From positions 1 through 13,491 of the forward strand of contig JACRDW010000048.1 in NCBI GenBank assembly GCA_016212785.1: a stretch of 13,491 bases of DNA. The letters are read 5' to 3'. This stretch comes from Methanobacteriota archaeon (GTDB lineage: Archaea; Hydrothermarchaeota; Hydrothermarchaeia; Hydrothermarchaeales; JACRDW01). Below, one piece after another: positions 148-12,784 of this stretch. The translations under genes and the position numbers were made by a program. Every line of letters begins with the position of its first letter. The stretch's first letter is position 1. The notes beneath the pieces are model-generated. The model made no database searches. It saw only the letters and a program-made list of their open reading frames with translations, and was not told the DNA's origin.

Positions 148-369
148 ATGCCGAAGGAAGAGGAAACCAGAGGTTTTCCAGCAGAGGTCGTCGAGGTCAT
201 AGGCAGAACCGGCATGACGGGCGAGATTCTTCAGGTCAAGTGCAGAATTTTAGAGGGCAGAGACAAGGGAAGAAGTATCAGGAGAAACGTAAAAGGTCCA
301 ACAAGAGTCGGCGATATATTGATATTAATGGAGACTGACAGAGAAGCCAAAGAATTAAGGGTGCCCTAG
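148..369 (+). CDS. rps28e: 30S ribosomal protein eS28
   Basis: This 73-residue protein has the length and sequence of archaeal eS28, a small OB-fold protein of the 30S head near the mRNA exit and E site. Family hallmarks are the early [13 protein letters not shown] segment (residues 14-26), [13 protein letters not shown], and the signature tail [21 protein letters not shown] (residues about 50-70). The start is the ATG at 148, with a good ribosome binding site (GAGGAGG) about 7 nt upstream; an overlapping frame starting at 132 has no family resemblance. It follows rpl7ae by 16 nt and is probably co-transcribed with it. The stop TAG at 367-369 is immediately followed by the first repeat element, so nothing separates the end of this gene from the repeat. 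Confidence 0.95.
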
Positions 370-579
370 TCTCAGCATTTCGCTGTCAAGCTTTTCAAAC
401 CACTTGACGTAGGGATTGTCCCTACGTCTGTCTTCTCGAATGATTGCTCGTGCCGAGACCCAGTCGGTCAAGACACGACTGAGCATTCATTCAGCAGGAA
501 CGAAGGCACGAGCGACACTCATGCGATTCTTCTTGCGAAATCTCGCTTCTACGAAGCGAATGCGACGAAGGGATTGAAA
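370..579 (+). repeat. Modular leader repeat, copy A (rps28e to rpl24e)
   Basis: This element fills the whole gap between rps28e and rpl24e. Blocks in order: CTCAGCATTTCG at 371, GTCAAGCTTTTCAAAC at 385, a perfect hairpin with arms GACGTAGGGA and TCCCTACGTC around loop TTG (406-428), CGAATGATTGCTCG (437-450), then TGCCGAGACC paired with GGTC at 466-469, an outer TCGTG (448-452) paired with CACGA (474-478), and CTGAG at 479-483, complementary to the opening CTCAG (371-375). A private segment follows with hairpin TCGCTTC / GAAGCGA (543-559). The right end GAAGGGATTGAAA leads into the ATG of rpl24e. Bases 387-442 match copy C (5099-5154) with one mismatch in 56. No TATA box is evident, so it is probably transcribed as part of a longer message. 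Confidence 0.8.
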
Positions 580-753
580 ATGGAAGTTCATGAATGTTCA
601 TTCTGCGGCAGGAAGATTGAAAGCGGCATAGGAAAAATGTTCGTAAAGAAAGACGGCACCGTGCTTTATTTCTGCAGCAGCAAATGCGAGAAGAACGCAC
701 TTAAGCTTGGAAGAACTCCGAGAAAAGTTGGGTGGATAAGAAAGGCGAAGTAA
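580..753 (+). CDS. rpl24e: 50S ribosomal protein eL24
   Basis: This short gene encodes 57 residues. It has the treble-clef zinc site of eL24 (C6, C9, C32, C36) in the contexts [15 protein letters not shown] and [11 protein letters not shown], followed by the basic [13 protein letters not shown] tail. Archaeal eL24 proteins are about 55-65 residues and lack the long C-terminal extension of the eukaryotic protein; they sit at the subunit interface of the 50S. The ATG at 580 is the last part of the GGATTGAAAATG motif that ends repeat copy A, with GAAGG acting as ribosome binding site. The gene ends GCG AAG TAA, and this GCGAAGTA string recurs at the left edge of repeat copy E, so its last two codons and stop may lie inside the left boundary of copy B. 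Confidence 0.95.
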
Positions 754-906
754 TTTCTCAGCACTTCGAAACGCTCAGACCTTCGAGCATTGGCATGGTT
801 CGCGTTTCTTGTGCCGAGACCCATCATTACACTTGCGTAGCAAGTGGTAGAGTGGGTCAAGACACGAGGAGAAACGACTAAAAGGAGTTTCGACGAGTGG
901 ATTGAA
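746..906 (+). repeat. Modular leader repeat, copy B (rpl24e to ndk)
   Basis: This copy starts at or inside the end of rpl24e: CGAAGT at 746-751 (overlapping the TAA stop) can pair with ACTTCG at 763-768, enclosing CTCAGC. It lacks the TCAAGCTTTTCA block and the GACGTAGGGA hairpin of copies A and C; that position instead holds a GAAACG (769-774) / CGTTTC (803-808) pair. The core is complete: GACCCA (818-823) pairs with TGGGTC (853-858) around an inner hairpin CACTTG / CAAGTG (830-846). Outside it, CTTGTG (808-813) pairs with CACGAG (863-868) through one U-G wobble. A GAAAC / GTTTC pair (871-891) precedes the right end GAGTGGATTGAA, one A shorter than in the other copies, leading to the ndk ATG. 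Confidence 0.75.
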
Positions 907-1320
907 ATGGAGAGAAGTTTTTTCATGGTCAAGCCTGATGGCGTTGAGAGAGGCTTGGTGGGCGAGATTATCTCGAGAGTTGAGAAAAAAGGACTCAAAA
1001 TAATTGCCATGAAGATGATTCGTGTGGATGCGAATCTTGCGAAAAAGCATTACGCAGAGCATGCTGCGAAGCCGTTTTTCCGGGATTTGGTGGCGTATAT
1101 AACTTCTGGACCCTGCGTTGCGATGGTTGTGGAGGGAAACAACGCAATTAAAACATTGAGAGATATGACTGGCAAGACTAATCCAAAGGAAGCTGCCGCA
1201 GGAACGATTAGAGGCGACTTCGGTATCGACGTTTGCCGCAACGTTGTGCACGCTTCTGATTCCAAAGAGTCTGCAAAGAAAGAAATCGAGCTTTTCTTTA
1301 GACCGAGTGAAATTTTATAA
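907..1320 (+). CDS. ndk: Nucleoside diphosphate kinase
   Basis: Ndk moves the terminal phosphate from ATP to other (d)NDPs through a phosphohistidine, balancing cytosolic NTP and dNTP pools. The 137-residue product is co-linear with the family: [21 protein letters not shown] at the N-terminus (nucleotide-site Lys in VKPDG), the HYAEH helix near residue 50, GTIRGDFG (99-106), and the catalytic motif NVVHASDS with the phosphorylated His115. The usual residue after that His is Gly; Ala is found here. The frame is open upstream to 844, but those 21 codons are repeat-element sequence, so I place the start at the ATG at 907, where the family N-terminus begins. Ndk between eL24 and aIF5B is the classical archaeal order. 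Confidence 0.95.
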
Positions 1321-1324
1321 ACGT
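1309..1324 (+). promoter_or_regulatory. Probable TATA/BRE promoter for infB
   Basis: The sequence TGAAATTTTATAAACG at the end of ndk looks like an archaeal BRE plus TATA box. Its centre (about 1317) lies about 28 nt before the infB ATG at 1345, the spacing expected when transcription starts at or next to the start codon. No Shine-Dalgarno sequence is visible before that ATG, which fits a leaderless mRNA. It overlaps the last ndk codons. Inferred from spacing and composition only. Confidence 0.5.
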
Positions 1325-1344
1325 TAATCTCTAAGAAATAAACA

Positions 1345-3093
1345 ATGATAAGACAGCCTATAGTATCTGTTCTGGGTCATGTTGACCATGGAAAGACCAC
1401 GCTGCTCGACACGATTCGCGGTTCAGCGGTTGCGGAAAGAGAGGCGGGCGGCATAACGCAGCACATCGGAGCTACGGAAATACCAATGAGCGTAATTGAG
1501 AAGCTGTGCGGCGGCTTGCTCAAGCAGCTGGCTGTCAAAATAACGTTGCCCGGACTTCTCTTTATAGATACGCCCGGGCACGAGGCATTTACAACGCTTC
1601 GAAAGCGGGGAGGCGCACTTGCAGATTTAGCCATTCTCGTTGTGGACGTTAACGAGGGATTCCAGGCGCAAACCTTAGAAGCTTTGAATGTTTTAAAAAC
1701 CTACAAAACCCCGTTTTTAGTGGCTGCGAATAAAATCGATAAAATAAAGGGATGGCAGGTATTCAAGGGATTTCCGTTCACGCACAGCTTTTCAAAGCAG
1801 GACGAGGAAACAAAGTCTCTGGTCGAGAATGAAGTCTACGAGCTCGTCGGAAAGCTCTACGAAGAGGGCTTTCAGTCAGAGAGGTTTGACAGAGTAACGC
1901 AGTTTGAAAAGCAGGTGGCAGTGATACCTGTAAGCGCAAAAACAGGAGAGGGCATTCCGGAGCTTTTGATGATGCTGATAGGACTTGCCCAGAAGTTCAT
2001 GGAGAAGCGGCTTGAAGTGGAGATACAGAGTCCTGCAAAGGGGACGATACTCGAGGTAAAAGAGGAGGTCGGGCTCGGAGTAACTGTGGATGCAATAATA
2101 TATGACGGGAAAATCAAGAGAGGAGATGCCATAGCGGTGGGCGGGAGAAAAGAAGTGATTGTAACCAAGGTTCGCTCGCTTCTAAAGCCAAAGCCGCTCG
2201 ATGAAATCAGAGACCCGAGGTTTAAATTCAATCCTGTTTCCGAGGCGCATGCGGCATGCGGAATAAAAATTGCTGCACCAAATCTCGAAGACGCTCTCGC
2301 AGGCTCTCCTATACGAGTGGTCGGCGAGGATTTGGAGAAAGGAGTGGCAGAGGTTAAAGCAGAGATAGCGGAAATAAAAGTTGAAACAGAAAAAGCTGGC
2401 GTCGTTGTTAAGGCAGACACCCTCGGCTCCCTGGAAGCCTTGATAAACATGCTGGAGAAAGAGAGCATACCGGTTAGAAAAGCGGACGTGGGCGACGTAT
2501 CGAGGAGAGACATTGTGGAGGCTGAGGCTGTGAGAGGTGAGGACAGATATAAAGCCGTAGTGCTCGGATTCAATGTAAAAGTTTTGAAGGATGCTGAGGA
2601 GAGAGCCAGGGCAACTGCAACGCAGATATTTCAGAACAATGTAATTTATAGATTAATTGAGGACTACCAGAAGTGGATAGCAGAGGAAAAAGAAAGGGAA
2701 AAGAGAGAAGAATTCGACAAGATTACTAAACCTGCGAAGATTAAAATTCTCCCCCACTACGTATTCAGGACCAGCAAGCCCGCCATAGTCGGAATAGAAG
2801 TACTGGCAGGTACCATAAGAACCAACGTGAAGCTTATGAACGAGGAAGGCGGAGTAATTGGAACCGTCAAAGGCCTGCAGGACAGGAACGAGAATATCGA
2901 AGAGGCGAGGAAGGGACGCCAGGTTGCGATTGCAATAGATGGCGCAACCGTGGGAAGGCAGATAAAAGAGAACGATATTCTATATTCTGAATTGCAGGAA
3001 AACGAGGTGAAGTTGATAGAGAAATATAGAAAGAATTTAAGCCCAGACGAAGAAGAGGCTTTCGAGGAAATAAAAAAAATAAGAGGTGATTAG
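1345..3093 (+). CDS. infB: Translation initiation factor aIF5B (IF2-like GTPase)
   Basis: aIF5B is the universal GTPase that promotes subunit joining and positions initiator tRNA. The 582-residue product has the archaeal length without the long N-terminal region of bacterial IF2. GTPase motifs are intact: G1 GHVDHGKT (11-18), switch I with GGITQHIGAT (35-44), G3 DTPGHE (75-80), G4 NKID (129-132), G5 SAKTGEG (197-203). Beta-barrel domain II begins near residue 225, domain III near 345, a charged linker helix (KWIAEEKEREKREEFDK) near 450, and the C-terminal tRNA-binding barrel follows with KPAIVGIEVLAGTIR. No intein interrupts it. The gap to ndk is 24 nt, with a TATA-like box rather than a ribosome binding site, so it may also be transcribed separately. 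The stop TAG abuts the TTG start of rps6e. Confidence 0.97.
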   Translation: MIRQPIVSVLGHVDHGKTTLLDTIRGSAVAEREAGGITQHIGATEIPMSVIEKLCGGLLKQLAVKITLPGLLFIDTPGHEAFTTLRKRGGALADLAILVVDVNEGFQAQTLEALNVLKTYKTPFLVAANKIDKIKGWQVFKGFPFTHSFSKQDEETKSLVENEVYELVGKLYEEGFQSERFDRVTQFEKQVAVIPVSAKTGEGIPELLMMLIGLAQKFMEKRLEVEIQSPAKGTILEVKEEVGLGVTVDAIIYDGKIKRGDAIAVGGRKEVIVTKVRSLLKPKPLDEIRDPRFKFNPVSEAHAACGIKIAAPNLEDALAGSPIRVVGEDLEKGVAEVKAEIAEIKVETEKAGVVVKADTLGSLEALINMLEKESIPVRKADVGDVSRRDIVEAEAVRGEDRYKAVVLGFNVKVLKDAEERARATATQIFQNNVIYRLIEDYQKWIAEEKEREKREEFDKITKPAKIKILPHYVFRTSKPAIVGIEVLAGTIRTNVKLMNEEGGVIGTVKGLQDRNENIEEARKGRQVAIAIDGATVGRQIKENDILYSELQENEVKLIEKYRKNLSPDEEEAFEEIKKIRGD

Positions 3094-3474
3094 TTGCAGA
3101 AACTTATAATCTCGGATTCGAACGGAAAATCTTACAGCATCGAGTTGGATGAAAAAAAGTCTAAGAGTTTTATCGGCTTGAATATAGGGAAAGTTTTTGA
3201 TGCCGCACAGCTCGGGCTTGCGGGCTATAAGATTAAGATAACCGGCGGAAGCGACAAAGACGGCTTTCCGATGCGCAGCGACGTGCACGGAAGGGTGAGA
3301 GCGAGAATACTTCTCTCCAGCGGCCCTGGTTACCGACCAAAGGAGAAAGGGCTGAGGAGGAGAAAGATGGTAAGAGGGAGAGCTATTACCCCTGAGATCA
3401 TCCAGATTAATGCAAAGGTTGTGGAGAAGGGAGAGAAAAGCCTTGAAGAGCTGCTCGGCAAGAAAGGTGGTTGA
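3094..3474 (+). CDS. rps6e: 30S ribosomal protein eS6
   Basis: This 126-residue protein matches archaeal eS6, a 30S body protein: DAAQLGLAGYKIKITGGSDKDGFPMRSDVHG (residues about 36-66), then a basic RPKEKGLRRRKMVRG stretch and ISPEI-type VQINAKVVEKG near the end. Archaeal eS6 lacks the phosphorylated tail of eukaryotic RPS6. The start is TTG at 3094, directly after the infB stop, with GAGGTGATT as ribosome binding site; no ATG near the family N-terminus exists. It is therefore likely translated by coupling to infB. The downstream aIF2-gamma gene also uses TTG directly after this stop. eS6 next to aIF2-gamma is a widely conserved archaeal pair. Confidence 0.95.
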   Translation: MQKLIISDSNGKSYSIELDEKKSKSFIGLNIGKVFDAAQLGLAGYKIKITGGSDKDGFPMRSDVHGRVRARILLSSGPGYRPKEKGLRRRKMVRGRAITPEIIQINAKVVEKGEKSLEELLGKKGG

Positions 3475-4695
3475 TTGCAGCCTGAAGTGAACATAGGCAT
3501 GGTTGGTCACGTAGACCACGGCAAGACAACGCTGACCCAGGCGCTGTCCGGGATATGGACGGACAGGCACAGCGAGGAGATAAAGAGGGGCATTTCCATA
3601 AGACTGGGATATGCAGATTGCACTTTTCGGCGCTGTCCTTCCTGTCCAGCGCCGAGATGCTACGCAACGGAGGAGAAATGCAGGCACTGCGGTTCAAAAA
3701 CAGAGGTATTGAGGGAGGTTTCTTTTGTTGATTCTCCAGGGCACGAGACTTTAATGGCTACCATGCTTTCCGGCGCCGCAATAATGAACGGTGCAATTCT
3801 CGTCATCGCAGCGAACGAACCCTGCCCCCAGCCCCAGACAAAGGAGCATCTCATGGCCCTGGATATAATAGGCGTCAAGAATATCATAATCGTCCAGAAT
3901 AAGATAGACCTGGTCCCAAAAGAAAAAGCCCTGGAACACTACGAGCAAATTAAAAATTTCGTCAAGGGCACCACAGCCGAGAATGCTCCGATAATACCGG
4001 TCGCAGCCCAGCACAAGGCTAATGCAGACGTCTTAATTCAGCACATCGAAAAAATCATACGCCCCGTGGAGAGAGACCCAAGCAAGCCTGCGAGAATGTT
4101 TGTTGCACGCTCTTTCGATATAAACAAGCCGGGTGCTCTTCCAGAGAACCTAAAAGGCGGAGTTGTGGGCGGTTCTCTGACGCAGGGAAAATTAAAAGTT
4201 GGAGATGCGATAGAAATATCCCCGGGAATAAAAATAGAGGAAGAGAACAAAGTTTACTGGAAATCTCTCACAACCGAAATAGCGTCTCTGATGATTGGAG
4301 AAAAAAAATTCAAGGAAGTTTTTCCGGGCGGGTTGGTGGGAATAGGCACGAAGCTCGACCCATCTTTTACAAAATCCGACGGCTTGTCAGGAATGATTCT
4401 CGGGCAGCCGGGCGCGCTGCCTCCGGTATTGCACAGCCTTCTGCTCGAAGTTTACCTGCTTCAGAGAGTTGTCGGAACCAAAGAAGAGCTTGAGGTAGAA
4501 AAGATTAAAACAGGCGAGCCTCTAATGCTGAGCGTGGGAACAGCAACAACCGTAGGAGTAGTATCCAGCGCCAGAAATAACGAGGTCGAGATGAAGTTAA
4601 AGCTGCCCGTGTGCGTGGAAAAAGGAGTCAGAGTTGCGATTAGCAGGAGAATAGGAGCAAGGTGGAGATTGATTGGCTACGGAATCATATTATAA
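3475..4695 (+). CDS. eif2g: Translation initiation factor aIF2 subunit gamma
   Basis: This is the GTP-binding core of the heterotrimer that delivers Met-tRNAi to the 30S subunit. The 406-residue length is typical. Motifs: G1 GHVDHGKT (11-18), switch [16 protein letters not shown] (34-48), a zinc knuckle inserted in the G domain with cysteines at 54, 57, 69 and 72 (C49 and C62 also present), G3 DSPGH (86-90), G4 NKID (142-145), then two beta-barrels beginning near residue 205 ([14 protein letters not shown]) and 310. The start is TTG at 3475, immediately after the rps6e stop with GGTGG as ribosome binding site, and is the only start matching the family N-terminus ([18 protein letters not shown]). 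The 3' end overlaps the following PIN gene by 23 nt. Confidence 0.97.
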
Positions 4696-5050
4696 AGTTG
4701 TGCTGGACTCAAATTTTTTGCTGCTGCCGCTTCAGTTCCGCATCGACATATTTGCAGAGCTGGATAAACTGCTGGATGTACGCTACGAAGTTTATGTTAC
4801 GAAGGGAGTGATAGAGGAGCTGAAAAAAATAAAATCGAGGCATGCCAGAGCAGCGTTATCTATTGCAAATAAGCTTCCTGTTATAGATGCGGAAGGCGGT
4901 GTTGACGAGGCTCTTTTAAAACTTGCCTCAAAAGACATTATAATCGCTACAAACGATAAGTTTTTAAAGGAGAAGATAAGAAAAAAAGGTGCGCCAGTAG
5001 TTTACCTGCGCCAGAGGAAATACCTGGCGATTGACGGTTATATTAGGTAG
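4673..5050 (+). CDS. PIN-domain protein, archaeal Fcf1-like putative rRNA-processing nuclease
   Basis: This 125-residue protein is a single PIN domain. Expected acidic metal ligands are visible: D12 in [10 protein letters not shown]48/E49 in [11 protein letters not shown]78 in [11 protein letters not shown] and D95 in [29 protein letters not shown]. The last stretch closely resembles the ATNDxxLKxRIRKxxGVPxxY segment of eukaryotic Fcf1/Utp24, the nuclease acting on pre-18S rRNA. Family position next to aIF2-gamma in archaea supports a ribosome-related role, but activity is inferred. The start is TTG at 4673 inside the aIF2-gamma 3' end, preceded by GGTGGAGA; it is the third TTG start in a row. 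The stop TAG is immediately followed by repeat copy C. Confidence 0.85.
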
Positions 5051-5197
5051 CGAAGTTAGGCGCAAAGGGTCAAGATACGACTCTCAGCACTTCGATGACA
5101 AGCTTTTCAAACAACTTGACGTAGGGATTGTCCCTACGTCTGTCTTCTCGAATGTCGTCTCGTGCCGAGACCCATTGAGAAAAGGAGTGGATTGAAA
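5051..5197 (+). repeat. Modular leader repeat, copy C (PIN gene to hppA)
   Basis: This copy fills the gap between the PIN gene and hppA. Its modules are shuffled relative to copy A: a GGGTCAAGATACGACT block (5068-5083) lies before, not after, CTCAGCACTTCG (5083-5094). CGAAGT (5051-5056) can pair with ACTTCG (5089-5094). Then come CAAGCTTTTCAAAC, the perfect GACGTAGGGA / TCCCTACGTC hairpin (5118-5140), TCTTCTCGAATG, and TCTCGTGCCGAGACCCA (5158-5174). The partner GGGTC is missing on the right, so the core stem of copies A, B and E cannot form in the same way. The right end AAAGGAGTGGATTGAAA leads to the hppA ATG. Bases 5099-5154 are 55/56 identical to 387-442 of copy A. Confidence 0.8.
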
Positions 5198-7291
5198 ATG
5201 ATAGAATATATCGTACCAATAGCAGGTTTTACAGGTCTTGCATTCGCAGCCTACCTGGCGAGATATGTTTTGAACCAGGACAAAGGTACGCAGAAAATGC
5301 AGGACATTGCGAATGCAATTGCGGAGGGGGCGAACGCTTTCTTACACAGACAGTACAGTACCATTGGTAAGCTCGCTGTCATTGTTGCAGCGATTCTTGC
5401 GGCGGTGTGGTATATCGCTGCGCCGGAGAACAAGGGCGCTGCAGCGTTTAAGGTAGGATTTGCATTCCTCACCGGCGCTGCAATGTCAGCAATATCTGGT
5501 TATGTGGGCATGTATATTTCAGTCCGTTCAAATGTCAGAGCAGCTGCCGCTGCAAGGAAGAGCGCAAGTGATGCGCTTACCGTTGCGCTGCGCGGCGGCG
5601 CAGTTACCGGGCTGCTCATCGTTTGCCTGAGCGTGCTCGGCGTTGCAGGCATTTACTATCTATATTCTGCGCTGTTTGGTCTTGGTAAGGATACGCCTCT
5701 CTACATCGTCGGCTACGGCTTCGGCGCAAGTTTTGTCGCACTTTTTGCACAGCTCGGCGGCGGGATTTACACCAAGGCAGCAGATGTTGGTGCTGATTTG
5801 GTTGGCAAAATCGAGGCAGGAATACCGGAGGACGACCCGCGCAACCCGGCAGTTATCGCTGACTTGGTAGGCGACAACGTCGGCGACTGTGCGGGAAGAG
5901 GTGCAGATTTGTTCGAAAGCACTGCCGCAGAAAACATAGGCGCCATGATTCTGGGCATACTTTTGTTCCCGATAGCAGGTTTTGCCGGCATATTATTTCC
6001 GCTCGTGGCAAGGGCGCTCGGCATATTCGCAACGATTGCAGGTCTTTTCTCTGTGAAAATGAAGGAGGATGAAGACCCGATGAAGGCTCTTGCAAGGGGT
6101 TATGTCATCACGAGCATACTCGCTGCGATATTCTTCTACATAGCAGTAAAAATTATGTTTGCACCCACGATACCCGGGCACATGTGGCTCTTTGCTTCCG
6201 GGCTGGTGGGCATTGCAATGAGCGTTGTGTTCCTGTATCTGACTGATTATTACACATCCGATAAATACAGACCTGTTCAGGAGATTGCAGAGTCCTCGCA
6301 GACAGGTCCTGCAACCAATATAATTTCAGGGCTTGCAGTCAGCATGGAAACAACAGCGCTGCCGGCAATAACAATTTGCGCGTCTCTTCTGCTCGCCTTC
6401 TATTTCGGAGGTAAAAGCGGCGTTGCGCACGGCGGTCTCTACGGCACGGCGCTCGCTACGATGGGCATGCTTGCGACGTGTGCGTATATACTTGCAATGG
6501 ACACCTTTGGACCGATTACTGACAATGCGAACGGCATAATCGAAATGTCAGGCTTTTCGGGTGAGGTGAGGAAGGTAACAGACAAGTTGGACGCAGTCGG
6601 CAACACAACGAAAGCATTAACAAAGGGATATGCCGTAGGAAGTGCCGGGCTTGCAGCATTTTTGCTCTTCCAGGCATACATGGAAGCGGTGCATATAAAT
6701 ATCGTGGATATTGCAAAGCCTGATGTGTTTGTGGGCGGTTTCGTAGGCGTTATGCTCGTGTTCATATTCAGTTCGCTTGCAATTCGCGCAGTCGGCAGAA
6801 ATGCGTACGTCATAATCAACGAGGTTCGCCGCCAGTTCAGAGAAATTCCAGGGATAATGGAGGGAAAAGCAAAGGCAGATTATGCTGCATGCGTGGATAT
6901 ATGCACAAGGGGTGCGCTGAAAGAGATGGTCTTACCCGGGATGCTGCCTGTACTCGGGCCGGTACTCATCGGCGTGTCCTTCAAATATGCCTACGGCAGC
7001 GGCGGTGAGGCGGTCGCGTCTTTCTTGATGATGGGCACAATCGGCGGGGTCATCCTGGCTATGATGATGAACAACGGCGGCGGTGCCTGGGACAATGCAA
7101 AGAAGTATATAGAGGCAGGAGCATACGGCGGTAAACGTTTGGCTGACGGAAGCAAAAATCCCACCCACGCTGCGGCGGTAGTCGGAGACACTGTCGGAGA
7201 CCCGCTCAAGGACACCGCAGGACCTTCGCTGCACGTGGTAATAAAACTGCTGAGTACAATTACCCTCGTGCTCGCGCCTTTGTTCGTATGA
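5198..7291 (+). CDS. hppA: Membrane-bound proton-translocating pyrophosphatase, K+-independent type
   Basis: This 697-residue polytopic membrane protein couples cytosolic PPi hydrolysis to ion pumping. The catalytic signature is complete: TKAADVGADLVGK (192-204), EDDPRNPAVIADLVGDNVGD (211-230) and CAGRGADLFEST, a second acidic loop DTFGPITDNANGI (435-447), and the C-terminal motif with AAVVGDTVGDPLKDTAGPS. About 16 hydrophobic segments are expected and many are obvious. The segment GNTTKALTKG has Lys472 where K+-dependent enzymes have Ala; by published family rules this predicts a K+-independent H+ pump. An open frame continues upstream to a GTG at 5162, but those 12 codons belong to the repeat; the ATG at 5198 with GGAGTGG fits the family N-terminus. 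Using PPi made by tRNA charging and polymerases would fit its neighbours, though that link is inference. Confidence 0.97.
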   Translation: MIEYIVPIAGFTGLAFAAYLARYVLNQDKGTQKMQDIANAIAEGANAFLHRQYSTIGKLAVIVAAILAAVWYIAAPENKGAAAFKVGFAFLTGAAMSAISGYVGMYISVRSNVRAAAAARKSASDALTVALRGGAVTGLLIVCLSVLGVAGIYYLYSALFGLGKDTPLYIVGYGFGASFVALFAQLGGGIYTKAADVGADLVGKIEAGIPEDDPRNPAVIADLVGDNVGDCAGRGADLFESTAAENIGAMILGILLFPIAGFAGILFPLVARALGIFATIAGLFSVKMKEDEDPMKALARGYVITSILAAIFFYIAVKIMFAPTIPGHMWLFASGLVGIAMSVVFLYLTDYYTSDKYRPVQEIAESSQTGPATNIISGLAVSMETTALPAITICASLLLAFYFGGKSGVAHGGLYGTALATMGMLATCAYILAMDTFGPITDNANGIIEMSGFSGEVRKVTDKLDAVGNTTKALTKGYAVGSAGLAAFLLFQAYMEAVHINIVDIAKPDVFVGGFVGVMLVFIFSSLAIRAVGRNAYVIINEVRRQFREIPGIMEGKAKADYAACVDICTRGALKEMVLPGMLPVLGPVLIGVSFKYAYGSGGEAVASFLMMGTIGGVILAMMMNNGGGAWDNAKKYIEAGAYGGKRLADGSKNPTHAAAVVGDTVGDPLKDTAGPSLHVVIKLLSTITLVLAPLFV

Positions 7292-7313
7292 GAGGAGGGA
7301 AAAGCGATAAAAG

Positions 7314-7979
7314 ATGTATAGACTCGTAGTACTAGAAGACCTCATAAGGGTTCCGCCTGATAAATTTGGTCTGCCGCTGACCGAGGTTGTAGAGGATATT
7401 CTAAAAGCAGGTTATGAATATACGATGCACAATAAGCTGAGAAGAGAAGGCGGCTATGAAGGCAGGCTGGACAAAGAGCTGGGGATGATACTGGCAGTAA
7501 CGAAAATAATAGATATAAAGGACGGAACAGTTATACCCGGCGACGGCGCTGCTTATCACAGCACAACCTTTGAGGCGCTGGTATTTAAGCCAGAGCTGCA
7601 CGAAATTCTTGACGTCGAAATCGTCGAAATCGTCGAGTTTGGCGCATTCGTGCGCTTGGGACCCCTCGACGGCTTGATTCACGTTTCCCAGATAACAGAC
7701 GACTTCATAATTCACGACGTAAAGAGAGGAGCTCTGGTCGGAAAGGAAAGCAACAAGGTTCTGGGAGTCGGAGACAGGGTGAGAGCAAGAATTGTTGCAG
7801 CTAGCCTGAACCCTGAGAAATCCAAGGAGAGCAAGATAAATCTCACAACCCGCCAGCCCGGACTGGGAAAGCATGAGTGGCTGGAAGAAGCAAGAAAGAA
7901 AGGAAAGAAAGAGCCAAAGAAACCAGAGAAGCCGAAAGAGGAAGAGAAGAAAGAAGAAAAGAAAAAGGAGAAGAAATGA
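7314..7979 (+). CDS. rpoE1: DNA-directed RNA polymerase subunit RpoE1 (Rpo7, RPB7 homologue)
   Basis: RpoE1 forms the polymerase stalk with RpoF and binds emerging RNA. The N-terminal half has the RNP-like fold (MYRLVVLEDLIRVPPDKFGLPL), with conserved VIPGDGAAYH (73-82) and FEALVFKPELHE (86-97). An S1 RNA-binding domain follows from about 98 to 178 (VEFGAFVRLGPLDGLIHVSQ, then GDRVRARIVAASL). Two oddities stand out. First, about 12-14 residues (YEYTMHNKLRREGG, about 35-48) sit between the ILKAGYE helix and YEGRLDKELG, where homologues I recall run directly into YEGKIDKDLG. Second, residues about 191-221 form a tail almost wholly of Lys, Glu and Pro. The start ATG at 7314 has a strong GAGGAGGG site 14 nt upstream and follows hppA by 22 nt. 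Spt4 is next, the usual partner order, but separated by repeat copy D. Confidence 0.95.
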   Translation: MYRLVVLEDLIRVPPDKFGLPLTEVVEDILKAGYEYTMHNKLRREGGYEGRLDKELGMILAVTKIIDIKDGTVIPGDGAAYHSTTFEALVFKPELHEILDVEIVEIVEFGAFVRLGPLDGLIHVSQITDDFIIHDVKRGALVGKESNKVLGVGDRVRARIVAASLNPEKSKESKINLTTRQPGLGKHEWLEEARKKGKKEPKKPEKPKEEEKKEEKKKEKK

Positions 7980-8168
7980 GCCCTTTCAGCCCTTTTGCTT
8001 TTGCAAAAGCGCTGGCGGAAAACTACTTGCGATAGCAAAACCGCCAGACTTGCGCACTACCTGACGGTATTGCGAAGCGAACTGCAATAACGGGTCAAGA
8101 CCGAGGTCTTCAAACGTAGAAAATTTGCGAAGCAAATTTTCAGACGTTTAAAAACGAAGGGATTGAAA
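7980..8168 (+). repeat. Modular leader repeat, copy D (divergent; rpoE1 to spt4)
   Basis: This most divergent copy is almost entirely stacked inverted repeats. These are the palindrome GCTTTTGCAAAAGC (7997-8010); CTGGCGG (8012-8018) / CCGCCAG (8041-8047) enclosing TTGC / GCAA around GATA (8027-8038); TATTGC / GCAATA (8068-8089); and a long stem AAACGT + AAAATTTGC / GCAAATTTT + ACGTTT (8112-8149) capped by GAA. The family link is GGGTCAAGACCGAGG (8092-8106), matching the GGGTCAAGACACGA block, and the right end ACGAAGGGATTGAAAATG, identical to copy A. CTTC (8108-8111) could also pair with GAAG (8156-8159), the likely ribosome binding site of spt4. The left CTCAGCACTTCG block is reduced to TTTCAGCCCTTT. 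Membership is supported by two blocks only. Confidence 0.6.
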
Positions 8169-8351
8169 ATGAAGGAAAGAGCGTGCAAGGAATGCGGCAG
8201 GATAACCGAGCTGGATGTTTGCGTCGTGTGCAAAACTCCCACCTCATCGGACTGGATGGGTTACGTCAGCGTGATAGATGCTGAGAAGTCTGAAATAGCG
8301 AAAAAGTTGAACATAGCTGCAAAGGGAAGATACGCATTGAGAGTAAGGTAA
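8169..8351 (+). CDS. spt4: Transcription elongation factor Spt4 (RpoE2)
   Basis: This 60-residue zinc protein is the archaeal partner of Spt5/NusG, together clamping RNA polymerase for processive elongation. It has the four-Cys zinc site C6-x2-C9 and C18-x2-C21 (ACKECGRITELDVCVVCKT), followed by the SSDWMGYVSVIDAEKSEIAKKLNI core and a GRYALRVR terminus, typical in order and length. I place the start at the ATG at 8169, within the conserved GATTGAAAATG end of repeat copy D; a TTG two codons upstream is possible but is part of that shared motif. The stop TAA is followed without a gap by the DUF359 gene. The rpoE1-spt4-DUF359-rps24e order is common in archaea. Confidence 0.93.
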   Translation: MKERACKECGRITELDVCVVCKTPTSSDWMGYVSVIDAEKSEIAKKLNIAAKGRYALRVR

Positions 8352-8867
8352 ATGAAAGATTTAAAGCTGCCCAAAGAACTTCGGGGCATTTTCAAAAAAC
8401 CTTTTGGTGAAGTCTATAGAGGTAAAGGATTAAAGCCAGCGCAGGAAATCAAGAGCAGGCTGAAGGGCGAGAAGGTAATCGTAGTCGGAGACATGACTCT
8501 CAAAAACATGCTTGCGGTCGGAGTTAAGCCGAATCTCGCTGTCGTGGATTTAAAAACGAAAAGGAGCATTGAGATGCCTGCAGTTGAAAACGTTTTCAGA
8601 GCGAAGAATCCTCCGGGAATGATAACAAGCGACTTATGGAACAAAATACACGAGGCCATCGAAGTGGACGGCTCGGTTGTACTGATTGAAGGAGAGGAAG
8701 ACCTCGCTGTGCTGCCCTGCGTTTTAGAGGCAGACTGGGGTACGGTCGTGCTCTACGGACAGCCGGACGAGGGAATAGTATTTATTAAAGTAGATGAGAA
8801 CAAAAAGATTGAGGCAGGCATGGTGCTGAAGCTTTTAATGAGTTCACAGGAAAAGGAGGCGATTTAG
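8352..8867 (+). CDS. GTP-dependent dephospho-CoA kinase (DUF359)
   Basis: The 171-residue product belongs to the DUF359 family, shown in Thermococcus kodakarensis to phosphorylate dephospho-CoA with GTP, the last step of archaeal CoA synthesis, unrelated to bacterial CoaE. Family segments are all present: PFGEVYRG near the N-terminus, VVGDMTLKNML (44-54), NLAVVDLKTKRS (61-72, with the conserved acidic D66), NPPGMIT, VLIEGEEDLAVLPCVLEADWGTVVLYGQPDEGIV (110-143). The acidic EGEEDL and GQPDEG motifs are the likely metal and phosphate site. It starts at ATG 8352 directly after the spt4 stop and ends in TAG overlapping the GTG start of rps24e by one base, so it is firmly in the ribosomal operon, as in other archaea. 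Function is taken from the family, not shown here. Confidence 0.92.
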   Translation: MKDLKLPKELRGIFKKPFGEVYRGKGLKPAQEIKSRLKGEKVIVVGDMTLKNMLAVGVKPNLAVVDLKTKRSIEMPAVENVFRAKNPPGMITSDLWNKIHEAIEVDGSVVLIEGEEDLAVLPCVLEADWGTVVLYGQPDEGIVFIKVDENKKIEAGMVLKLLMSSQEKEAI

Positions 8868-9282
8868 TGGAAGTAACGATACTCGAAGAGAAGGAAAACC
8901 CGCTTCTTGACAGAAAAGAACTGAGGGTCAAGGTTGTTCACGACGCCGCAACCCCGAGAATATCTGAAGTAAGAGACAAGATGGTTGCGATGCTGGGCGT
9001 TGATAAAGAAACTCTCATACTGGATTCCTTAAAGTCAAGATTTGGCGCCAGAGAAAGCATCGGCTTTGTCAAGGTTTACAAGACGAAGGAGAGGGCACTC
9101 AAGGTAGAGCCGAGGCACAGGCTGGAGAAAAATTTGCTTGTGGAAAAAACCAAGAGAGAAGAGAAGCCAAAAGCAGCACCCAAGAAAAAAGAGGAGCCTA
9201 GGAAGGAAGTCCCAAAAAAGGAAGAGAAGCCAAAAGCGGAAGTGAAAAAAGAGACGCCTAAGAAAGAGACGGAGAAGAAGCA

Positions 9283-9286
<4 letters not shown>
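8867..9286 (+). CDS. rps24e: 30S ribosomal protein eS24 with Lys/Glu-rich tail
   Basis: The first 95 or so residues match eS24: [33 protein letters not shown], then [35 protein letters not shown], ending at the usual family boundary near YL/NLLVE. A tail of about 45 residues follows, made of Lys, Glu and Pro with imperfect repeats around EEKPKA ([31 protein letters not shown]). Archaeal eS24 is usually about 100 residues, so the tail is an extension, probably disordered, resembling the tail of RpoE1 in this window. The start is GTG at 8867, overlapping the DUF359 stop (TAGTG) and preceded by AAAAGGAGG. The stop overlaps the rps27ae ATG (ATGA), a four-base overlap that implies translational coupling. 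Confidence 0.93.
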
Positions 9287-11012
<1,726 letters not shown>

Positions 11013-11014
<2 letters not shown>

Positions 11015-11060
11015 AATTTCTGGACCCATTAATGTAGGCTTGTTTGGGTCCAGAAATTTT
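11013..11060. terminator. Perfect 15-bp inverted repeat between convergent genes
   Basis: Arms AAAATTTCTGGACCC (11013-11027) and GGGTCCAGAAATTTT (11046-11060) are perfectly complementary around an 18-nt loop. The A/T-rich arm ends give a U-run after the hairpin on either strand. It lies exactly between the bud32 stop (11012-11014) and the stop of the minus-strand gene (TAA at 11062-11064 on the complement), so it can terminate both. It does not resemble the modular leader repeats. Confidence 0.7.
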
Positions 11061-11061
11061 A

Positions 11062-11595
11062 TTAATAAGTGCACACTACAGCGCTGGCGGCATGCAGCTC
11101 AAAGTATGGGCAGGGCTTCGTGCATTCTTTTATCTCGACTTCACTTCTCTTCCAGGGGCAATCTACAGAGCCATTTTTGATTGGAATACTCCTCCTGGGG
11201 TGGGCTTCCTTGAACCACCTGATAGAGGGCGCCGTAGACTCGTATGTGTTCTTGTTTACCTGCTTTATATATTTCAGTGCCTGCAGTACTAGCAGTGCTC
11301 TTGCAACAACCGTCTTTTTCAAGGGAACTTGCTTGTAGAGATCCTTCTCCCTGAATACCGGAGGCATGGCGTAGAGGTATTTCTTTACACTTTCTACCTC
11401 TTCTTTGGATATAGAGGGGTTATTTTTCCACAAAAGCACATATTTGGTATTTGTTCTAAAAATTACCCCTTTTTCAAACTCTAACAAGTCTCCATCCAAT
11501 TTTGAAAGCTTCTCATCTATTTTAGACAGCTTTTTTTCCAGTTCTTCCTTCTCCCTTACCAGACTTTTTATCCTCTGGATGCCAATTTTCATCAT
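11062..11595 (-). CDS. Unrecognised coiled-coil, possible winged-helix, Cys-containing protein
   Basis: I do not recognise this 177-residue protein. Residues about 8-42 are heptad-like and charged (LVREKEELEKKLSKIDEKLSKLDG) and look like a coiled coil. A middle part (about 65-115) is helical with a DLYKQVPLKKTVVARALLVLQALKYIKQ stretch ending in a possible beta-wing, which could be a winged helix and hence DNA or RNA binding. The C-terminus holds four Cys (146, 158, 162, 175; DCPW, ECTKPCPYF) that might bind zinc. It is the only minus-strand gene in the window and splits kae1-bud32 from rdgB-rps15, so it looks like an insertion. The ATG at 11595 faces rdgB; only about 65 nt lie between the likely starts. 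Coding is supported by an open frame of family-like composition and a flanking terminator, not by homology. Confidence 0.7.
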   Translation of the reverse strand: MMKIGIQRIKSLVREKEELEKKLSKIDEKLSKLDGDLLEFEKGVIFRTNTKYVLLWKNNPSISKEEVESVKKYLYAMPPVFREKDLYKQVPLKKTVVARALLVLQALKYIKQVNKNTYESTAPSIRWFKEAHPRRSIPIKNGSVDCPWKRSEVEIKECTKPCPYFELHAASAVVCTY

Positions 11596-11621
11596 TTAAT
11601 ATGTTAAAATTACCGTCAAAA

Positions 11622-11640
11622 AACCAAAAAATTTATGTTT
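11622..11640 (+). promoter_or_regulatory. Possible TATA box for rdgB (divergent promoter region)
   Basis: An A/T-rich string CAAAAAATTTATGTTTTA in the gap between the divergent genes resembles BRE plus TATA. Its TTTATG core (about 11630-11635) lies about 28 nt before the GTG at 11661, the distance expected for a leaderless or near-leaderless transcript. The same A/T-rich stretch, read on the minus strand, could serve the divergent gene. Weak evidence: composition and spacing only. Confidence 0.35.
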
Positions 11641-11660
11641 TAGTAAAAAAAAGCGGAGTT

Positions 11661-12329
11661 GTGATTTACTTTACAACCTCGAACAGGCATAAATATCTCG
11701 AAGCAAAGGAGATATTTAGGAAGAACGGGCTTAAATTGGGGAGAATATCCAGAGATTATACAGAAATACAGGCAAATACTCTGGAAGAAGTAGTAAAAGA
11801 GGCCCTCTGGCACATAAACAGAAAAAAAGTATTCATTGAAGATTCAGGCATTTTTATAAAGGCGCTGAACGGCTTTCCGGGCGTTTATTCTCGCTACGTC
11901 GAGGACACGATTGGAAATCGCGGAATTTTAAGATTGATGCGAGATGTTAAAAATCGCGGTGCTGTCTTCAGGTCAGTAGTTGGCTACAAAGACAGTAGAA
12001 CAAAGCTATTCAAGGGCGAGGTTTACGGCAGCATAGCTCTGGAAGAGCGCGGTATCAAGGGCTTTGGCTACGACCCCATATTCATACCAAAAGATTATAA
12101 TAAGACCTTCGCAGAGGATTATAGACTAAAGCAGAAAATTTCGCACAGGAGAAAAGCGATAGAGAAGCTTGCGAAGTATCTCAGCACTTCGCAATCAAGC
12201 TTTTCATATAGGCGAGAGCGAATGATTGCTCATGCCGAGACCCAGAGTTGCACTTGCCGAGGGCAAGTGATATATCGGGTCAAGACACGACTGAGAGAAG
12301 AACGAAGTTCGAGCGAAGGAGTGGATTGA
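11661..12329 (+). CDS. rdgB: Non-canonical purine NTP pyrophosphatase (RdgB/HAM1) with repeat-encoded tail
   Basis: RdgB/HAM1 hydrolyses dITP, ITP and XTP to the monophosphate and PPi, keeping deaminated purines out of nucleic acids. Motifs: [19 protein letters not shown] at the N-terminus (substrate-binding S/T-x-N-x-x-K), [22 protein letters not shown] (catalytic acidic motif), [11 protein letters not shown] (specificity loop) and a [12 protein letters not shown] terminal helix. I start at GTG 11661, where the family N-terminus begins; an ATG at 11601 adds 20 residues without family resemblance and leaves no room for a promoter next to the divergent gene. The family normally ends near KLAKYL (about residue 174 of 222). 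The last 48 residues are translated from repeat copy E up to a TGA inside its GATTGAAAATG end, two bases before the rps15 ATG. The tail is Arg/Ser-rich and resembles no known domain to me. Confidence 0.88.
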
Positions 12330-12331
12330 AA
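12171..12331 (+). repeat. Modular leader repeat, copy E (overlaps rdgB 3' end, precedes rps15)
   Basis: This copy lies mostly within the rdgB reading frame and ends at the rps15 start. TTGCGAAGT (12169-12177) pairs perfectly with ACTTCGCAA (12186-12194) around ATCTCAGC. Then come TCAAGCTTTTCA, an AGGCGAGAGCGAATGATTGCTC segment replacing the GACGTAGGGA hairpin, and TGCCGAGACCC (12233-12243), whose GACCC pairs with GGGTC (12277-12281). Inside is a hairpin CACTTGCC / GGCAAGTG around GAG (12251-12269). AAGACACGACTGAG follows, with CTGAG (12291-12295) complementary to CTCAG (12180-12184). GAAC / GTTC around GAA (12300-12310) precedes the right end GAAGGAGTGGATTGAAAATG. The left edge GCGAAGTA is shared with the last codons of rpl24e at copy B. 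Confidence 0.78.
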
Positions 12332-12784
12332 ATGTCAAGGATGCATTCAGGTAAGAGAGGCAAATCAGGTTCTACGAGACCTTACAGGACCTCACCCCCG
12401 GAGTGGGCAGAGTATCAGCCGCAGGAGATTGAAAATCTGATACTCAAGCTCGCAAAGAAGGGTGAAAATCCAAGCATGATTGGTACAACATTGAGAGACC
12501 AGTACGGCGTACCAAACGTTAAATTAATCTCGAAAGAGAGGATAACTAAAATTTTAGATAAAAAAATGAAGAGGGAAATACCAGAGGATTTGATGAATCT
12601 AATTAGAACGGCAGTAAATCTGGAGAAGCACCATGCGGCGAATCCTCACGATACGACTGCCAAGCGGGGCATGCAGCTAGCCGAGTCGAAAATAAAGAGG
12701 CTTGCGAAGTACTACGTGAGGGAGGGCAGATTACCTGCAGGCTGGGCGTACGACCTTGCAAAAGCTAAGCTGCTGGTGAAATAG
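12332..12784 (+). CDS. rps15: 30S ribosomal protein uS15
   Basis: This 150-residue protein has the archaeal/eukaryotic form of uS15, longer than the bacterial 89 residues. The N-terminal signature [17 protein letters not shown] is present, followed by [43 protein letters not shown] and the 16S-rRNA-binding core ([42 protein letters not shown]) and a short [12 protein letters not shown] tail. The ATG at 12332 fits the family N-terminus exactly and is the ATG of the GATTGAAAATG motif of repeat copy E; the frame is open upstream to 12248 only because of the repeat. The next gene (DHH family) starts 2 nt after the stop. uS15 followed by a RecJ-like gene is a common archaeal pair. Confidence 0.96.

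Follow-up and report, generated by a model that had tools for sequence, protein, structure and literature searches.

Mismatched hairpins at tRNA 3' termini and start codons: a likely family of short non-autonomous mobile elements in an archaeal order

REP sequences and REPINs, which go with RAYT Y1 transposases, are dispersed imperfect hairpins, non-autonomous and devoid of terminal inverted repeats, while the Rickettsia palindromic elements are palindromic inserts which can be translated as part of host proteins. The repeats analysed here were found in a contig of 13,491 nucleotides (nt) from a Methanobacteriota archaeon of the order Hydrothermarchaeales (GenBank assembly GCA_016212785.1, contig JACRDW010000048.1; here contig G000:C156), referred to as the window over its full length. 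The source genome, G000, comprises 1.11 Mb in 161 contigs. Five copies form leaders, which end at start codons. The family differs from REPINs by the lack of a Y1 match in the genomes carrying it, by precise placement at tRNA ends or start codons and by nested modules, and from the Rickettsia elements by docking at gene boundaries, both protein changes detected being end extensions.

Comparable behaviour is described in organelles. The GC clusters of yeast mitochondrial DNA are short, palindromic, non-autonomous and mobile, with constrained stems and an unsettled mechanism, and they merge and shuffle into compound elements with a putative short AG target duplication (available part of PMC4478555). 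Short palindromic non-autonomous elements, constrained stems, compound forms and a putative short duplication are features in common with the present family, from which the mitochondrial setting and the AG duplication set the clusters apart; the likeness concerns behaviour only, not sequence relatedness, and neither docking at tRNA termini or start codons nor GA/GA hairpins are described, in that part of PMC4478555, for these mitochondrial clusters. Similarly, repetitive hairpin-forming elements invade intergenic regions of sponge mitochondria with a patchy distribution (available part of PMC2800124). Intergenic invasion and patchiness are shared with them, but the sponge repeats are organellar and structurally divergent, and exact docking at gene boundaries is not stated in the same part of PMC2800124.

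The archaeal elements are strings of hairpins, of which one 3' end often lies exactly on a gene boundary and the other side is variable; they are nested in or next to each other, and the ancestral gaps do not contain them. They probably constitute a family of short non-autonomous mobile elements, made of hairpins, one end of which docks at tRNA 3' termini, in G000 at start codons as well. It is proposed more tentatively, as a possibility short of an even chance, that an enzyme attaches minimal hairpin DNAs with tandem GA/GA mismatches to tRNA 3' termini, through one end and with a fixed orientation, and that one lineage switched to start codons, filling the space from stop to start and becoming leaders of many genes, ribosomal ones included; such elements would form a new archaeal mobile-element class. 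As far as the literature was searched, structure and target choice are new: no description of the family was found in open-licence PMC papers, subscription papers and preprints lying outside this scope. If the proposal holds, the intercistronic regions of many genes in this compact archaeal genome are the work of a parasite-like repeat that uses as docking targets two of the most constrained boundaries of a genome, and mobile DNA can be watched while it becomes gene leaders.

Hairpin architecture and the five leaders

Base-by-base reading confirmed the five leaders of the initial annotation, all ending 0 nt before an ATG: rpl24e (580), ndk (907), hppA (5198), spt4 (8169) and rps15 (12332). The neighbouring genes are supported by Pfam (S28e, L24e, NDK, H+-pyrophosphatase, Rpb7-like protein, Spt4, Ham1/RdgB, S15). 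Alignment of the copies revealed that the blocks GGGTCAAGACACGA and GGATTGAAA pair as the feet of a single hairpin, type 1 (GGGTCAAGACACGA...GTGGATTGAAA), which ends at the start codon in the window copies. The blocks CTCAGCAC and TGCCGAG, read on the opposite strand, form a second hairpin, type 2, with the structure GGGU[C/G]UCGGCACGAG-stem ... stem-CGAAGUGCUGA[G/C]; it corresponds to GGGTCTCGGCACGAG...CGAAGTGCTGAG, the reverse complement of the first and third blocks originally reported.

The type-1 consensus, GGGU[C/G]AA GA CAC GA C GA-stem ... stem-GA G GA GUG GA UU[G/C]A-AAA, consists of Watson-Crick segments interrupted by three tandem GA/GA mismatches (UCAA-GA-CAC-GA-C-GA-stem-loop-stem-GA-G-GA-GUG-GA-UUGA). 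The type-2 consensus, GGGU[C/G]UCGGCAC GA G-stem ... stem-C GA A GUGCUGA[G/C]-AAA, contains one GA/GA step. Covariation was evaluated for type 1 on 66 matches (E<=0.05; 54 own, 12 from relatives), across 504 kb of contigs, to a covariance model, R1, built from 13 copies with the outer UCAA/UUGA pairs excluded. Over 13 pairs, 88.3% of the cells are paired, and double-change cells number 135, against 47.4 after shuffling and 7-34 when the alignment is slid. Two of the four outer pairs, which lie outside R1, covary (CG 44/GC 12; AU 52/GC 6) and the other two hardly vary; the isolated C-G pair between the GA pairs covaries as well (CG 29/GC 26). For 23 chosen type-2 copies, 15 pairs gave 95.6% paired cells and 57 double-change cells, against 15.5 after shuffling.

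The features of the window are listed below; R2 is the corresponding type-2 model.

368..461, minus strand: copy 1, type-2 hairpin, antisense, 3' end 1 nt from the rps28e stop (R2, 46.3 bits)
465..579, plus strand: copy 1, type-1 hairpin, made larger by a multi-hairpin insert nested in it (R1, match 465-582, 31.1 bits)
485..565, no strand: copy 1, the nested multi-hairpin module GCATTC...GAATGC (from the sequence, borders by eye)
571-579, plus strand: copy 1, foot GGATTGAAA abutting the rpl24e ATG (from the sequence)
406..428 and 5118-5140, no strand: inner hairpin GACGTAGGGATTGTCCCTACGTC, common to copies 1 and 3 (repeat I4)
754..822, minus strand: copy 2, type-2 hairpin, antisense, 3 nt from the rpl24e stop (R2, 63.7 bits)
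816..858, no strand: copy 2, linking hairpin GACCCA...TGGGTC (the minimum free energy fold shows three consecutive hairpins)
854..906, plus strand: copy 2, type-1 hairpin, foot abutting the ndk ATG (R1, match 854-910, 77.7 bits)
5067..5197, plus strand: copy 3, D block to foot with an inverted type-2 hairpin nested between, foot at the hppA ATG (from the sequence)
5080..5173, minus strand: copy 3, type-2 hairpin (R2, 51.4 bits)
7979..8021, plus strand: copy 4, left module P, AGCCCTTTC AGCCCTTTTGC...GGCGGAAAA (from the sequence)
8092..8168, plus strand: copy 4, type-1 variant GGGTCAAGACCGAGG...GAAGGGATTGAAA, foot abutting the spt4 ATG (R1, match 8092-8171, 36.3 bits)
12177..12243, minus strand: copy 5, type-2 hairpin within the rdgB frame (R2, 77.3 bits)
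12277..12331, plus strand: copy 5, type-1 hairpin, foot abutting the rps15 ATG (R1, match 12277-12334, 64.7 bits)
12177..12329, plus strand: element-encoded RdgB tail of ~50 codons, ending at the TGA in the foot (reading frame and relatives)

The ordered blocks initially attributed to all five copies hold for copies 1, 2 and 5 (A-C-D-foot) and not for the other two: in copy 3, which as a whole is not matched by R1, the order is D-A-C-foot (D at 5067), and neither CTCAGC nor TGCCGAG is present in copy 4, which has a different left module and the D variant GGGTCAAGACCGAGG. The block TCAAGCTTTTCA is missing in copies 2 and 4. Copies 1 and 2 lie near a stop codon and copy 5 inside the rdgB frame; copy 2 begins at about 754, past the rpl24e stop, rather than at 746. 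In these three copies type 2 is inverted and faces the upstream gene, with type 1 set against the downstream start. Module P of copy 4 lies directly 3' of an ATG (7976-7978) which overlaps the rpoE stop. On either strand the five copies fold better than their dinucleotide shuffles (z -3.4 to -6.2), and the two strands fold about equally well. No gathering-level Rfam match was found in the window; with a relaxed cut-off, there were two weak ones in positions 340-920 (E 0.3 and 3.1).

Nesting is not confined to copy 3: in L035, L051, L052, L055, L056 and L121, too, a type-2 hairpin lies between type-1 feet, in either orientation. Loop palindromes such as GACGTAGGGATTGTCCCTACGTC, 20-mers of which have a count of 8 in the first 270 kb examined, sit in outer stems which differ among copies and are mostly still paired, window copy 1 being an exception. 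Modules resembling the 485..565 insert are seen by eye in other loops. Module P (AGCC(C)TTTT...) is a frequent left end, not a universal one, and was discarded as a fixed terminus.

Other interpretations of the conserved letters were also rejected. A CRISPR-repeat-like nature of the foot GGATTGAAA was dismissed because foot and D block show covariation (GGATTC, GGTTCG, GGATCC), and general translational coupling through the foot TGA because GGATTC copies lose it. A conserved mini-ORF (open reading frame; MGQDT.../WVKTR..., two frames, by eye) is probably a by-product of the conserved hairpin letters. Correction of palindromes by template switching does not fit, since mismatches persist rather than being repaired.

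Insertion, copy number and distribution

The leaders are insertions, because in relatives the same gene pairs are nearly fused and lack the element. The rps28e-rpl24e gap, 210 nt here, measures 1-15 nt in 17 relatives, and the rpl24e-ndk gap, 153 nt here, 2-38 nt in 16 relatives; between rdgB and rps15 the distance is -20 to +4 nt in six relatives, one more relative (L164, 541 nt) being not interpretable. The orthologous gaps, whose comparison had been suggested in the initial annotation, are short and without insert. Host proteins are modified at their ends. RdgB of the six relatives ends soon after the equivalent of 'KYL', and here it is ~50 codons longer, stopping at the foot TGA. About 15 N-terminal residues of ribosomal protein L30 (L060:904-1404, minus strand) apparently come from a type-1 hairpin: inside it lies an ATG, the start codon chosen by the analyst, from which the frame is open, and the Pfam domain begins at residue 17. 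In addition, near-identical copies are found at different sites. L040 and L053 share 100 nt at 99% before two different ORFs, one response-regulator-like and the other S14-like; L041 and L054 share 70 nt at 98.6%, each before a different ORF, and L034 and L117 share 168 nt at 99%, with P next in both.

Covariance-model searches of the genome and of its relatives revealed many copies beyond the five. At E<=0.001, G000 contains 41 type-1 and 47 type-2 hairpins, and type-1 matches rise to 57 at E<=1. Of the 13-base core of the D block, the 1.11 Mb contain 25 exact copies; allowing as many as 2 mismatches raises this to 47 places, against 21 for the pattern read backwards, an excess over chance.

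Across the 23 genomes of the phylum, R1 detected G000, G009 (6 matches), G004 (2) and G006 (2), with one weak match in G021; R2 detected G000, G004 (19) and G006 (4), with one weak partial match each in G010 and G012. A search of 394 genomes with R2, under stricter filters (E<=1e-5), returned only G000, G004 and G006. The carriers other than G000 represent three other families of the order, and three of the four carriers are 57-62% complete. A pattern scan of GTDB r220 contigs added two contigs of one metagenome-assembled genome, OS_PC_MetaG.mb.32. The type-1 pattern had no match in viral contigs, and copies 1-2 had none in plasmid and phage collections. Five viral contigs matching a type-2 pattern were judged to be chance hits, as they reach 11-19 bits with R2 (own copies 24-84) and nothing with R1; one of them (L230) reads as coding sequence by eye.

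Two observations concern the contigs of G000. Exact 141-base ends are shared by L053/L060, L042/L053, L110/L125, L061/L121 and L050/L052, suggesting that several contigs are neighbours probably split by the assembler. A 694-base duplicate with 94% identity occurs on two contigs (L113:1-694, L118:7587-8280).

Docking at tRNA 3' termini and start codons

Hairpin positions were compared with those of tRNAs, taken from Rfam. The 3' end of type-2 hairpins lies exactly on a tRNA 3' terminus, in antisense orientation, in 10 of 19 cases in G004, 2 of 4 in G006 and 7 of 47 in G000; the same is true of type 1 in G006 (2 of 2) and G009 (4 of 6). Taken together, 18 of the 33 hairpins of both types in the three carrier relatives are exactly docked. 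Elsewhere in G004, one type-2 hairpin is 6 nt off and four are 52-65 nt away, three of these stacked behind a docked hairpin; a further one in G006 is 5 nt from a tRNA end. It may be argued that selection alone would not produce such exactness, because a trailer could begin anywhere downstream.

Around 13 of 73 distinct tRNA loci in the examined pieces of the four carriers, a second, partial copy of the tRNA's own terminus (~17-28 nt) was found within 500 nt. These copies score 15-25, and 0 to 7 of 72 other tRNA ends score as high at the same place; a fourteenth locus with the same score (tRNA-Asp, 18 of 72) was set aside as a neighbour's copy. In most of the examples listed, L118 being an exception, the partial copy adjoins a P-like module, with the intact tRNA at the opposite end. 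A docked type-2 model match is present at L056-Ser, L120-Lys and L125, and a type-1-like hairpin is seen by eye at L204-Lys.

Related arrangements were noted at other tRNA genes. Upstream of six tRNA-Val genes in three genomes (G000, G009, G004) a copy of the 5' part is followed by a P-like module and then by the intact gene (L115 ~2944-3147, L224, L128 ~1901-2128, L204, L208, L218). P-like modules also lie inside tRNA genes in L125 (minus, 11437) and L051 (minus, 13183), which ARAGORN reports as tRNA-Ser with introns and which read by eye as tRNA-Lys and tRNA-Thr; the modules may belong to introns.

Start codons are the second target. On the G000 contigs examined, which make up 38% of the genome and were chosen for hits, the foot of 41 of 54 type-1 matches (E<=0.05) adjoins the start codon, ATG, of an ORF which either has at least 45 codons or runs open off a contig end; an ORF of at least 45 codons is found at 4.2% of random positions. 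In 39 of the 41 the foot begins 8 or 9 nt before the ATG, and it carries a purine-rich GGAG/GGAT stretch near it. The other matches comprise five with ATG followed by module P, five without ATG, one with a short ORF and two without a recognisable foot. Among 40 type-2 matches on the same contigs (one really type 1), the stop of an ORF of at least 60 codons is within 3 nt of the 3' end in four (copies 1 and 2, L037, L042) and 5-10 nt from it in three more.

Module P is preceded by ATG in 8 of 13 elements extending from P to a foot, listed by eye: L034, L040, L048, L050, L053, L062 (from its first AGCCC), L111 and L117 have it, and L043, L050:1297, L057, L058 and L110 do not. The cases are not independent, as in five of the eight the ATG already follows another foot, thus lying between tandem elements. 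Target duplications, originally reported as not seen, are suggested by the partial copies at several carrier tRNA loci and by ATG on both sides of several start-codon inserts; the unit would be ~17-28 nt at tRNAs and perhaps no more than the ATG at start codons.

Proposed mechanism and alternative explanations

A trans-acting enzyme would recognise the hairpin with its mismatches, most likely in the form of folded single-stranded DNA, and would join its A-rich 3' end to a nick at a tRNA terminus or start codon, with duplication of the target sequence. Once inserted, the foot, whose GGAG/GGAT lies near the ATG, would probably act as a new ribosome-binding region, and some inserts would donate N- or C-terminal codons to host proteins. 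Use as leaders in G000 is likely a consequence of insertion, because the stretch preceding the ATG is now provided by the foot. Of the initial suggestions, that of an invasive element is favoured by the empty gaps, the patchy lineages, the near-identical copies before unrelated genes and the tRNA docking in three relatives. Targeting of ribosome binding sites, in contrast, is not the general rule: hairpins dock at start codons and tRNA 3' termini, and GGAG/GGAT is supplied by the foot itself. With four carriers and defined hairpins and junctions, the family would offer, if this reading is right, a clean system to search for the enzyme and to study the recognition of tRNA ends and start codons by a hairpin.

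Several results weigh against mobile elements docked in this manner. Type-1 hairpins are never at tRNA ends in G004 (0 of 2) and G000 (0 of 41). The partial copies were counted at tRNAs of carriers only; just 3 of the 13 loci have a docked type-2 match, with a fourth type-1-like by eye, and no partial copy scoring that high was found at the docked G004 tRNAs examined. Duplication at start codons may be limited to the ATG, and the concentration of elements there may in part be due to selection, in a compact genome, against insertions at other places. No site present in one strain and absent in another was observed, the nearest genomes compared belonging to other families. Matches to the Y1 transposase (PF01797) and to the reverse transcriptase (PF00078) are zero in G000, G004, G006 and G009, the incompleteness of three of them applying here too; the search covered these two domains only, and tyrosine and serine recombinases, DDE, Cas1 and TnpB were not searched.

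The stems provide a further test, on the premise that G.U pairs should exceed A.C mismatches if stems are kept as RNA. The type-1 stems of G000 contain GU 4 and AC 10, omitting one bulge-shifted column pair (GU 8 and AC 22 with that pair and the relatives), and type-2 stems GU 10 and AC 9 when an invariant G.U column is omitted. The acceptor stems of the carriers' tRNAs (n=72) show GU 17 and AC 0, a contrast which is overstated as the offsets were chosen by a score rewarding G.U. On the opposite side, and fitting RNA, are the 12 type-1 stems of relatives (GU 4, AC 0) and one type-2 G.U pair which is nearly invariant (23 of 23 in A4, 49 of 53 in A5). Type 2 is transcribed in both orientations. 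On balance, the lack of G.U bias favours a DNA hairpin over an RNA leader, though not decisively.

The alternative which survives best, itself rather unlikely, is RNA-mediated insertion, in which an element RNA with an A-rich tail would be reverse transcribed from a nicked target (target-primed) or from a tRNA 3' end. Such a process would yield fixed 3' ends, variable 5' ends and variable duplications, and this is the pattern found, the A-rich 3' end being fixed and the 5' end and the duplication length variable; priming at tRNA 3' ends would also predict the antisense orientation seen there. The missing PF00078 match in the four carriers and the absence of G.U bias in the stems of G000 argue against it. 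In the whole order, PF00078 is found in one of 20 genomes, the non-carrier G007.

A functional leader RNA, that is, a genome-wide cis-acting element for translation or processing whose hairpin masks or presents the ribosome-binding region, is improbable. It would account for the feet at ORF starts, their GGAG/GGAT, stems kept by compensation, and the G.U pairs of type 2 and of the relatives' type 1. It does not account for the same hairpins lying antisense at tRNA 3' ends in G000 and three other genomes, nor for type 2 occurring in both orientations relative to type 1; orthologous genes in relatives manage without the element, the genes behind the elements are unrelated, the copies of G000 show no G.U bias and both strands fold about equally. 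The genome-wide regulatory leader initially proposed is therefore not upheld as a dedicated leader, in view of the tRNA copies and the missing G.U bias, but the inserts may have been co-opted as leaders in G000.

Scars of a site-specific integrase targeting tRNAs, namely attachment-site duplications spread later by recombination between copies, are quite improbable: an intact tRNA on one side and a partial copy on the other, at the 13 of 73 loci, are what such scars would look like, but start-codon sites and covarying hairpins are left unexplained and the docked G004 tRNAs examined lack a partial copy of that score. Least probable is a REP/REPIN or IS200/IS605-like miniature inverted-repeat transposable element moved by a Y1 (HUH) transposase cutting hairpin ends, which would agree with single-strand logic, with the absence of terminal inverted repeats and with hairpins that lie at or near the ends and are imperfect, their mismatches being conserved, but for which the four carriers show no Y1 match, the Y1-positive genomes G011 and G007 have no hairpin matches, and flanking duplications, present here, are not known to be made by IS200/IS605-type elements. 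Terminal inverted repeats of a classical (DDE transposase) element of this kind are absent by inspection (5' GGGTC/AGCCC versus 3' GGATTGAAA). Matches to PF01797 in the order number 13 in G011 and one in G007, both without hairpin matches. A single contig of the latter, G007:C229 (L103, L174), contains both a reverse transcriptase (2505-3086) and a piece of a Y1 transposase (5557-5805).

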